Source of the DNA: Halobacteriales archaeon QS_4_69_31
Lineage (GTDB): Archaea > Halobacteriota > Halobacteria > Halobacteriales > Haloarculaceae
Direction: 5' to 3'
DNA length: 64,000 bases
Assembly: GCA_003021655.1 (NCBI GenBank)
Contig: PXRP01000010.1
Location: 1-64,000 of the forward strand
A model generated the notes under the pieces. The model was not told the DNA's origin and made no database searches. It was given only the letters and a program-made list of their open reading frames with translations. Shown piece by piece: positions 47,298-49,794 of the stretch. The translations under genes and the position numbers were made by a program. Within the stretch, counting starts at the first letter, position 1; every line of letters starts with the position of its first letter.

Positions 47298-47819
47298 TCA
47301 ACAGGGGTCGTACCCCTTCCCGATGACGTCTTTCGATACGGTCACGAGTCGCACCGACCCCTCGGTGACGAAATACCGGGTCTCCGTTCGCCAGCCGTCG
47401 ATCGTGTAGCTCTCGTTGGTCTCACATTCGAGACCGCCGGAGTGGACGCCACGGACGCGGACGAGCACGCCGGTCTCGTTCCGGTCGAGGACCGTATACT
47501 CCGACTGAGCGACGTCACCGGTCGAGTATCAGCTGATGTTTGCCCACCCCGACAGGGTCTCGCCGATACGCCGTTCTTCGGCAGCGACCACCCGTCGACC
47601 GGCGCTTTCGTTCGAGAGTTTGCTGGCTGGAGGCGTCGCCCCCGTGGCCGTCCCCTCCCGGGAGGCCACGGGCGAGGCTGTCTCCGGGGGTCCGTCGGGG
47701 GTTGTCGTGTCGGCCGTCGGCGGGTCCCCGGCGGTCTGTCCGCCACCGGGCCCCAGACAGGCCGACAGGCCGACACAGAGAGCGAGGACCGCGAGCGTGC
47801 GGACGGGTATCTCTCGCAC
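47298..47819 (-). pseudogene. Lipoprotein gene interrupted by an in-frame TGA
   Basis: GTG 47819 opens a lipoprotein frame with lipobox LSAC, followed by a Thr/Pro/Gly linker; it runs 96 codons to TGA at 47529. The same frame continues without a break as YSTGDVAQSEYTVLDRNE and so on to a stop at 47298, ending GKGYDPC. Nonsense mutation of a probable Trp codon is the simple reading; haloarchaea have no known selenocysteine use. Total 173 codons. Confidence 0.6.
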
Positions 47820-47913
47820 GGGATCGGGTTCTGCCGTGGCCAGTAAATGCTTTCTGCGGTGTCGGCCGGCGTCCCACCGCACGCTTTTTGCCCGGGTGCG
47901 TCCATCGGGAACT

Positions 47914-48705
47914 GTGACGGTGGTCCTCTGTGGCGTGGGCGCGGACACGGGCAACGTCAGGCCGGTGCCGCGGGTCGACGCCGACGGCCGCGTCGAGTAC
48001 GTCCCCATCCCCGAGAAGGGCGCGACCAGCGAGACGGCCACCTACGGCACCATCGACCAGCGGTTCGGGGACGGCGTGCTGGCGGACCTGATCGACGGCG
48101 TCCGGCCGAACAGCGACGGGGAGTGGGTCACCGACGCCGCGGCGGTCCGCGACCAGCCGGTCCACCACGACCCGAACCTCGAAGCCCTGACCTACGGCGA
48201 GCACCGTCCCGGCTACGTCACGAAGCTCCGGGACCTGACGCCCGGGGACGTGGTCGCGTTCTACGGCGGCTTCCCGAGCGCCGACAGCGAGTACAAACAC
48301 CGGTACCTCTTTGGCTACTTCACGGTCGCCGACCGCCCCACGGTGCTCGACCCCGGGATGGACCTCGCCGAGAAGCGAGCGCGCCTCGACGACCACCCGG
48401 CGAACGCCCACGCCAGGCGGTTCGAGGGTCACGATGACCTCTACTACCACGACCCCGCGTTCACCGACCGGCCGCGCCCGGTCGTTCTCGTCGCCGGCCG
48501 CGACCCCGGCGGACTCCTCGACCGGGCGGTCCGGCTCAGCGACCGCCGGCGCGGACCCAACTACTACATGGCCGACGACGTGGCCGCAGTACTCCGCCCC
48601 CGGTCCCGGACGGAGCACGGCACCCACCTGGGCGGGTTCAAGCCCGCGCTGTGGTGTGACGTGCACGCCGACGAATTCATCAGATTCGTCTCAAAGGGTC
48701 CGTGA
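47914..48705 (+). CDS. Nmad3-like putative nucleotide-modification protein
   Basis: 263 aa from GTG 47914. The start VVLCGVGADTGNVRPV and the RVEYVPIPEKG, GDVVAFYGGF, YFTVADRP, RRGPNYYMADD and KPALWCD segments match the Nmad3 group proposed to act in DNA base modification. The mechanism is not known, and no other modification gene (glucosyltransferase, methylase) is in the window. TATA-like GCTTTTTGC at 47882-47890 sets the start. It borders the IS200/IS605-like remnant, suggesting acquisition with mobile DNA. Confidence 0.7.
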   Translation: MTVVLCGVGADTGNVRPVPRVDADGRVEYVPIPEKGATSETATYGTIDQRFGDGVLADLIDGVRPNSDGEWVTDAAAVRDQPVHHDPNLEALTYGEHRPGYVTKLRDLTPGDVVAFYGGFPSADSEYKHRYLFGYFTVADRPTVLDPGMDLAEKRARLDDHPANAHARRFEGHDDLYYHDPAFTDRPRPVVLVAGRDPGGLLDRAVRLSDRRRGPNYYMADDVAAVLRPRSRTEHGTHLGGFKPALWCDVHADEFIRFVSKGP

Positions 48706-48894
48706 TCGCGCTGCTCGCCCACGACGGCGCGCCCGTGACCGCTGTGACCGGTCGTCTGTCTCCCGCGTTCTTCCGGCTCGGCGGCGTTGGTGACACGACC
48801 GTCGAGGAACCTGCGTGGTTCGACGAAGCCGTGTCGGAAACGTCGTGAATCGGGTGGTCGGACCGCAGTCGGTTGCACGGTAGCAGTGCCGCAG

Positions 48895-49062
48895 TTGACA
48901 TCCTCCCCACGCTGAAGCGCGAGGATTCCAGCGTGGGGCGTCGGGCCGTCCGACGCAACCCCGCCGGTAACTTCCTCCCTGGAGGGAGTACCGGGTTCGT
49001 GAGCACCACGTCGGGGCGGTGGGCGCGTGACGACGCCAGTCCGTTGCGGACTCCCCCGCTTG
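48895..49062 (+). mobile_element. Array of hairpins resembling the end of an IS200/IS605-family element (TnpB/omega-RNA-like)
   Basis: The sequence GACATCCTCCCC starts the first hairpin. Stems seen: ATCCTC/GAGGAT with inner CGC-TGAA-GCG, or alternatively CCCCACGCT (48905-48913) with AGCGTGGGG (48930-48938); CGTCGG/CCGACG around 48940-48956; CTCCCT/AGGGAG near 48985-49000; AGTCCG/CGGACT near 49040-49055. The first hairpin resembles the right end of haloarchaeal IS200/IS605 (IS1341-type) elements. No tnpB gene remains: the 711-bp gap 48706-49416 contains no supported gene. Confidence 0.5.
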
Positions 49063-49416
49063 TGGCTCCACACCCGCCCGGTCGCTCAGCCGCAACAGGG
49101 GCGACCGTCCGAACGAATGTGTTCGCCCCCGTTCTTTCGCCGGGAGCGACACGGGCCGTGCCATCGACCGGACTCGGCCGCGGCCGAGTAGACAACCGCG
49201 AACGGGGCAGGTTTTGGTGTGCCGTCACCCCCTCGTGTACGCGGTCGTTGCCGACCGACTCCAGGGACGGGTAGGGGTTCTATGAGGACGGTGAGCGGTT
49301 CAGTCCCGTAGTTGTGACCCCACAGGATATGACCGCCGCGTGTCCATGTCGGCGGGGAGTGGCCCCGGCTCTCCCGGTTTGATTTTCGCGCTTGGCGTAC
49401 CGCCATGTACGACGCC

Positions 49417-49794
49417 CTAAACGTCAGCGCCGGGGGTCGCCGCTGCGGTCCCCCCGTCGGCGGCGACCGCGCCGCCGCCACCGGACGTGCTCTCGCCGGG
49501 TTCTATCTCGCCGACCCAGTGGGCGGGCCAGCTCTCGCGGGGCCCGAACTCCCACTCCTCCTCGGGGAGGAAGTAGCCGGCCCGCAGCGTCAGCGAGGTG
49601 ACCAGCAGGCCGACCATCGCGCCCAGCAGCGCGGGGAAGGTCGGCCCTAAGAAGTATGCGGTCAGCCAGTAGGGAACGGCGAACGACGCCCACGCGAAGA
49701 TAGGTGTCCTACCGAGGTGGTGCTGTCGGTCGGAACCCCTAAGCGGGTCCCGGCCGTGGCCGGAGGCATGGACGCGCTCGACCGCTTGGACCAT
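49417..49794 (-). CDS. Two-helix membrane protein, start uncertain
   Basis: 125 aa in the longest frame. Two hydrophobic segments (about 33-48 and 53-72) then an aromatic/acidic stretch EEEWEFGPRESWPAHW and a glycine-rich tail. No in-frame start exists between 49794 and the helices except this ATG, which overlaps the divergent 49768 gene, so the true start may be lost. Family not recognised. Confidence 0.5.
   Translation of the reverse strand: MVQAVERVHASGHGRDPLRGSDRQHHLGRTPIFAWASFAVPYWLTAYFLGPTFPALLGAMVGLLVTSLTLRAGYFLPEEEWEFGPRESWPAHWVGEIEPGESTSGGGGAVAADGGTAAATPGADV

Follow-up and report, generated by a model that had tools for sequence, protein, structure and literature searches.

The window analysed here is a stretch of 64,000 nucleotides from contig PXRP01000010.1 of Halobacteriales archaeon QS_4_69_31. 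Between positions 48895 and 49062 it contains a chain of hairpins, which the initial annotation compared with the right end of an IS200/IS605 element without tnpB and regarded as possibly a remnant or a still expressed guide-like RNA. This locus raises the question of which element the hairpins belong to and whether they form an RNA. In the present study, we consider it likely that they belong to a non-autonomous copy of an IS200/IS605-type element that came from an IS1341-type (tnpB) transposon, and that would have been mobilised in trans and may carry a guiding RNA. Such palindrome-associated transposable elements (PATEs) were described in Haloquadratum walsbyi (PMC3119063).

Limits, copies and relatives of the element

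The genome that contains the window (2.74 Mb, 60 contigs, 82% complete) was searched with the minus strand of positions 48890-49062. A second copy with 96% identity was found on contig C55 (78467-78895) in flanks unrelated to those of the window, and the description of the locus as solitary was therefore abandoned. Shorter matches to the last 33-44 bases were observed elsewhere in the same genome, one of which (on contig C21) lay directly after a tnpB gene. The comparison of the two copies placed the right end exactly at 48895 (...GTCAA, minus strand), beyond which the sequences were unrelated, and showed homology up to 49416. These results indicated that the hairpin chain is, as judged by alignment, the right end of an IS200/IS605-type element without protein genes (PATE), located at 48895-49416 on the minus strand. 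Position 48895 was thus kept as the true outer end, but the feature goes past 49062, with the element reaching 49416, perhaps 49422, and the RNA reaching about 49179. It reads on the minus strand, not on the plus strand that had been implied.

The C55 copy kept its left end and lacked about 92 bp of the middle, and a copy in genome G032 (record PXRT01000012.1) was 94% identical over all 522 bases. Both copies extended about 85-90 bp further left into the palindrome GCCCCGTCCTTTAGGGCGGGG, which is missing from the window copy. In the window, TGACGTTTAG, which is also the start of the C55 copy, joins straight to GGCGTCGTAC, indicating that the window copy has a left-end deletion. The likely relic at 49417-49426 has the same sequence as the left end of the C55 copy, TGACGTTTAG, and places the deletion joint at 49416/49417. 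The limits of the element are as follows.

48895..49416, minus strand: PATE copy of 522 bp without the left-end palindrome, defined by the C55 copy and corresponding to family HMM positions 82-607
49417..49426, minus strand: likely relic of the left terminus, with target TGAC at 49423-49426 and first bases GTTTAG at 49417-49422, inferred from the left-end alignment
48895..48899, minus strand: right terminus GTCAA, the outer end, where flanks begin to differ; GTCAA ends 31 of 33 full-length relatives

Near-terminal palindromes at both ends, which characterise PATEs, were found in the C55 copy, the G032 copy and the full-length relatives but not in the window copy. Since its left palindrome is missing, we called the window copy a defective member of the PATE family rather than an intact PATE, and it is probably immobile. 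PATEs also have ends in common with IS605-type elements. In accordance with this, the tnpB element on C21 (L006) matched the family model at positions 2-83 and 529-607, and further tnpB loci matched as well.

A profile built from 12 copies was searched among the collected loci and yielded 33 distinct full-length elements across Halobacteriales, mostly 590-625 bp in length (about 610 bp). The motif TTAC, which is the target of IS608 (PMC8612924), stood just before 27 of them, compared with 12 of 1287 background 14-mers; the remaining six targets were TGAC (three), TGAT, TTCC and CGAC (one each). DNA matches with an E value of 1e-12 or better were present in 43 of the 392 genomes of the order, our own genome counted, which is an underestimate because the search was at the DNA level. 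An exact search for a 22-base core motif yielded 23 stretches of the GTDB collection and no viral contig. Records with copies include Halorubrum alkaliphilum, Halogeometricum pallidum and Halopenitus persicus. Judging from the copies in unrelated flanks, the element has been mobile. No uninterrupted empty site was detected with the joined G032 flanks in 32 genomes or with the joined flanks of one G064 copy in 7 genomes. In the G032 search, 30 of 31 congeners other than G032 were matched, and nearly all best matches were to the left flank, ending at the target or a few bases before it; the right flank of the G032 copy is repetitive.

A tnpB gene in the middle of the element was considered and rejected, as tblastn against the full-length copies gave a best E value of 0.011, which was not above chance. 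None of 12 TnpB queries matched the window and C55 copies; a match of query q243 to the C55 element was discounted, because q243 is a wrong-frame ORF. The absence of tnpB in and beside the window copy, as initially described, was thus confirmed. Another coded protein was also rejected: long open frames occur on several frames because of the G+C content, but none is common to all copies.

The same genome carries other elements of this kind. A second PATE family with the same RNA type, ending in GGATGTCAT, has seven copies (contigs C3, C8, C9, C23, C24, C42 and C46; L176, L171, L177, L174, L175, L169 and L170) that are about 96-99% identical pairwise. Of these copies, five are cut off where a contig ends and two have N gaps, indicating that this family breaks the assembly. 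A further element, about 56 bp long (TTATGTGATGAGCAGGCGCAAAACCTCGCGCTTYAGCGCGGGGAGGATGTCAA), consists of termini only and was found in three copies, at C15:57162, C31:6040 and C40:12103 (L181, L180 and L182), resembling the 52-bp terminal-only PATEs of Haloquadratum (PMC3119063).

The structured RNA at the right end

The stems reported for the window are present. Perfect inverted repeats were found at 48905-48914/48929-48938 (10/10) and 48938-48944/48950-48956 (7/7), and further stems at about 48966-48994 and 49038-49053 were seen directly in the sequence. They had been described as stable; however, the fold energy gave z values of -0.27 (plus strand) and -1.26 (minus strand) against 200 dinucleotide shuffles, which is within chance for G+C-rich DNA. 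Since the stability of the single fold lies in the shuffled range, the case rests on comparison. Two mutually exclusive foldings of the first hairpin had also been proposed. Both exist in the window copy (ATCCTC..GAGGAT at 48900-48926 and CCCCACGCTG..CAGCGTGGGG at 48905-48938), but the 10-bp alternative is peculiar to this copy: 71.7% of its cells were paired over 30 relatives compared with 71.8% in shuffles, giving it no support. For the right-end hairpin at 48904-48925, 97.4% of cells were paired in the 30-element alignment.

This alignment covered the right approximately 285 bases of 26 of the 33 full-length elements together with the window, C55, G133 and one left-cut copy; two near-duplicates, four elements with long insertions and one short copy were left out. 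The consensus contained 59 pairs, 23 of which showed compensatory changes. Over the 30 elements, 97.2% of cells were paired (84.7% shuffled), with 206 double-change cells (69.9 shuffled) and a covariation of 0.359 (0.133 shuffled), and all measures were above every one of 500 shuffles, although such shuffle tests are inflated by relatedness. Slid controls retain the relatedness, and sliding the pairing destroyed the signal (covariation of 0.041-0.075 compared with 0.359), with the reservation that the structure was taken from this very alignment, which favours it somewhat over its slid versions. The fold energy was -72.4 for the sense strand and -51.0 for the antisense strand. In summary, a structured RNA is conserved over the right 285 nt, with the following parts in the window.

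48897..49179, minus strand: structured RNA homologous to TnpB omega-RNA/reRNA; 58 of the 59 consensus pairs intact
48904..48925, minus strand: right-end hairpin CCTCGCGCTTCAGCGTGGGG, common to tnpB elements
48928..48967, minus strand: RNA consensus helix 9
48975..48988, minus strand: helix 8, covarying (ACUCCC/GGGAG, ACUCACC/GGUGAG and ACACUCC/GGAGUG in relatives)
49006..49065, minus strand: helices 6 and 7
49069..49148, minus strand: helices 4 and 5, with the strongest covariation (changes on both sides in 15 of 18 pairs)
49154..49169, minus strand: conserved hairpin GGUCGAUGGCACGGCC near the RNA 5' end, matching the tnpB C-terminal coding stretch ..RPMARPV..

The upstream half of the element (26 elements) also had a conserved predicted fold (-70.2 compared with -17.7 for shuffled columns). 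It showed less covariation, with 81 double-change cells compared with 77 on the antisense strand, and we therefore claim no RNA there.

The likeness to an IS200/IS605 (IS1341-type) right end was borne out by L006, the tnpB element with the same end that had been looked for elsewhere and was found on C21 of the same genome. It was 91% identical over 44 bp, and its left end was common too. To extend this comparison, we used a covariance model, R1, that covers the final 120 positions and was trained on tnpB-less elements only. In 39 genomes, a search not selected for tnpB gave 86 matches with an E value of 1e-6 or better, 10 in our own genome and 76 elsewhere. From the latter, 70 were fetched (six at contig edges were left out) and two of less than 900 bases were set aside, leaving 68 testable matches. 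TnpB was encoded upstream on the same strand in 57 of the 68, placing the match at the 3' end of a tnpB gene. The other 11 included three training relatives (L193, L194 and L195) and one locus (L223) with a TnpB C-terminal remnant. These matches, together with the C21 ends, exclude that the window lacks likeness to any IS200/IS605 end. R1 also matched the 3' end at all 10 tnpB loci collected by their right end, and at one tnpB locus (L053) its match overlapped a match to sot0042 (RF02656) of 122.6 bits, with a cut-off of 88. sotRNAs have been equated with omega-RNAs (PMC12558985). In the comparison with omega-RNA models suggested initially, the window scored only 13.8 bits against RF02656 and is not a member of the Rfam family as curated. 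The tnpB elements and the PATE share only the left approximately 60 positions (about 3-62) and the right approximately 175 positions (about 432-607), not the PATE middle. The PATE core motif GATGGCACGGCCCGTG corresponds to DNA coding ..RPMARPV.. near the TnpB C-terminus. Collectively, both ends are common to tnpB elements, the ORF is gone and the RNA of the tnpB 3' end is kept as a larger covarying structure. On homology grounds, the window feature is an element that lost tnpB and retained the omega-RNA.

Sub-threshold matches to the Rfam family HgcC were observed at right ends (window 48882-48998, L031, L053, L006, L073 and L029). The window scored 25.2 bits against RF00062 (HgcC; cut-off 50), and mainly the terminal hairpin region agreed. 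It may be speculated that HgcC itself is a TnpB-type RNA, a link that was not found in the open-licence literature searched.

In our own genome, R1 gave 17 matches with an E value below 1e-3, seven of them at contig ends and 10 with an examinable upstream region. Only one of these 10 (C21) lay beside tnpB, so that the proportions seen in other genomes were reversed. The nine matches without TnpB were those of the window (contig C10), C55, C46, C8, C1, two on C31, C15:57162 and C40, the C46 and C8 loci containing N gaps. The genome has seven TnpB-domain matches and one tnpA (C38), indicating that partners in trans exist, with the tie of this tnpA to the present element ends being that of a candidate. 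At five other TnpB loci of our own genome (L001-L005, with only 210 downstream bases for L005), the 3' ends were not matched significantly by R1, and thus only the C21 TnpB is an obvious partner.

Possible function and competing explanations

Most likely, the protein-free element relied on enzymes made elsewhere in the cell. By analogy with ISDra2 and IS608, TnpA acting in trans would cut and paste intact copies. The RNA would run from the left end to the right end, finishing in the flanking approximately 16 nt as a guide, and would load a TnpB encoded elsewhere. This TnpB would cut the empty donor joint (TTAC or TGAC plus flank), and repair would copy the element back. Transcription, TnpB binding and mobilisation in trans are thus inferred steps. 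The window copy, lacking its left-end palindrome, should not excise and could at most supply an omega-RNA aimed at its own right flank. The corresponding guide is given below.

48879..48894, minus strand: putative 16-nt guide CTGCGGCACTGCTACC, provided that an RNA is produced here and runs on beyond the right end; positioned by analogy with the ISDra2 reRNA

We see about an even chance that such elements are RNA satellites of TnpB, which discarded both proteins and kept and enlarged a stand-alone omega-RNA. Each copy would reprogram TnpB to defend its own donor site, and the PATE-specific middle (about 270 bp), for which a conserved fold is likewise predicted, may be the element's own promoter or an added RNA domain. 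If intact copies produced an omega-RNA that loaded TnpB in trans, a single nuclease gene would be shared by many guide loci, comparable to a CRISPR array but with guides spread over mobile elements. This could help explain the commonness of protein-free elements beside tnpB elements in haloarchaea. The question of whether TnpB helps elements other than its own would become directly testable in the named species with copies.

For the window copy, a serious competing explanation, to which we give slightly less than an even chance, is that it is the same element as a dead fossil, with no RNA made from it and no function. The deleted left-end palindrome agrees with this explanation, as does the decaying neighbourhood, in which the copy abuts a lactate permease fragment whose other parts are absent from the window. 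When the element is read in its own direction, this internal piece of the permease gene is on its left, and the continuation of the gene was not found beyond the right end; the right flank is therefore probably secondary, and the guide carried now may differ from the original. The guide CTGCGGCACTGCTACC is likewise without a convincing second target in its own genome. However, the RNA fold is intact to the extent of 58 of 59 pairs, and the R1 score of 132.1 bits is the same as in the C55 copy, although a recent deletion would leave this too. Of the two initial possibilities, the deleted left end fits a remnant, yet with its intact RNA fold the copy may still supply a guide-like RNA.

The permease fragment at 49492-49701 (minus strand) corresponds to residues 246-315 of a 594-aa L-lactate permease relative (80% identical, cut on both sides) and was the only match in the genome at an E value of 0.001. 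An identification as cytochrome oxidase was rejected, since both Pfam and alignment indicated lactate permease. On the other side, an ORF at 47536-48705 (plus strand) with an Nmad3 (nucleotide modification associated) domain (E value of 1.3e-28) ends 189 bp before the element.

It appears unlikely that the conserved folds serve solely in single-stranded DNA, as hairpins to which TnpA binds, with no RNA involved. TnpA does recognise IS200/IS605 ends in this form (PMC7290912, PMC8612924), and the left end of the present element forms a hairpin too. The covarying helices, however, extend 285 nt inward, far past the terminal hairpin, and match both the RNA of tnpB 3' ends and an RNA family that is transcribed. 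An excess of G-U over A-C cells (255 compared with 28) points the same way but is weaker evidence, because one-strand fold prediction favours G-U and the antisense fold of the upstream half has the same bias.

It is very improbable that the locus is a domesticated solitary guide RNA through which a resident TnpB is steered to, and regulates, a host gene. An immobile copy with an intact RNA fold would suit this role, but the 16-nt flank had no other match with fewer than 2 mismatches in the genome and 28 matches with up to 3 mismatches, fewer than a reversed control pattern (278), so that there is no sign of a regulatory target; moreover, the flank of the second copy is a different one. That the hairpins arose by chance in G+C-rich DNA, or form a transcription terminator, was suggested by a single-sequence fold energy within the shuffle range but is already refuted by the second copy, the dozens of relatives and the covariation.

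Comparison with known systems

The work of Meers et al. 2023 on transposon nucleases and their guide RNAs reportedly mentions PATEs. The PATEs of H. walsbyi resemble the present family in having no transposase and IS605-type near-terminal palindromes and in being mobile, and no target duplication is reported for them in the available part of the paper (PMC3119063). Among them, HqIRS71 still has a portion of the tnpB C-terminal region, in which the ORFs are disrupted. The paper appeared before TnpB guide RNAs were described and, in its available part, proposes no RNA. The present family differs from them, as far as they are described there, by a full covarying omega-RNA and approximately 270 bp found only in PATEs. 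A PATE-like sequence of Halanaerobium hydrogeniformans consists of a left-end hairpin, the last 58 nt of tnpB and the whole right end (PMC7290912). It is a single bacterial copy of about 271 nt, and the available part of that report includes no family and no RNA analysis.

The closest expression record is that of the 489-bp PATE of the Halorubrum virus HRTV-DL1 and its host, which is also tnpB-less and strongly expressed in its right part (about 300 bp), where it underlies the most transcribed ORF (PMC10544981). It belongs to another PATE family, with an R1 score of only 18.5 bits. The reads are reported as mostly antisense to ORF3 (PMC10544981), and ORF3 runs in the same direction as the left-to-right axis of this PATE, which gives the opposite of the expected omega-RNA strand unless the library strand was inverted. 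This record counts as support for expression and counts against the expected strand. A homologue of the HRTV-DL1 PATE (L263, about 603-1091) was found in our own genome at C47:13900-15900 (L179).

The ISDra2 TnpB-reRNA is similar in that the reRNA comes from the tnpB 3' end and the right end, with a guide from the flank and a target beside the transposon motif (PMC8612924). ISDra2 differs in carrying tnpA and tnpB and in using TTGAT, whereas most relatives here use TTAC, like IS608. The haloarchaeal omega-RNA sot0042 (RF02656; PMC12558985) overlaps the tnpB 3' end and has the same terminal hairpin; the present element has no tnpB, and its distance from the motif to the end is about 271 nt compared with about 170 nt in L048. 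PATEs (PMC3119063), haloarchaeal omega-RNAs and the presence of a tnpB 3' end within a PATE (PMC7290912; HqIRS71) have all been published. No PATE family with a covarying stand-alone omega-RNA came up in the open-licence literature searched, in which the HRTV-DL1 PATE paper came nearest. What is new here is a PATE family that is widespread and in which structural constraint acts on a stand-alone omega-RNA.
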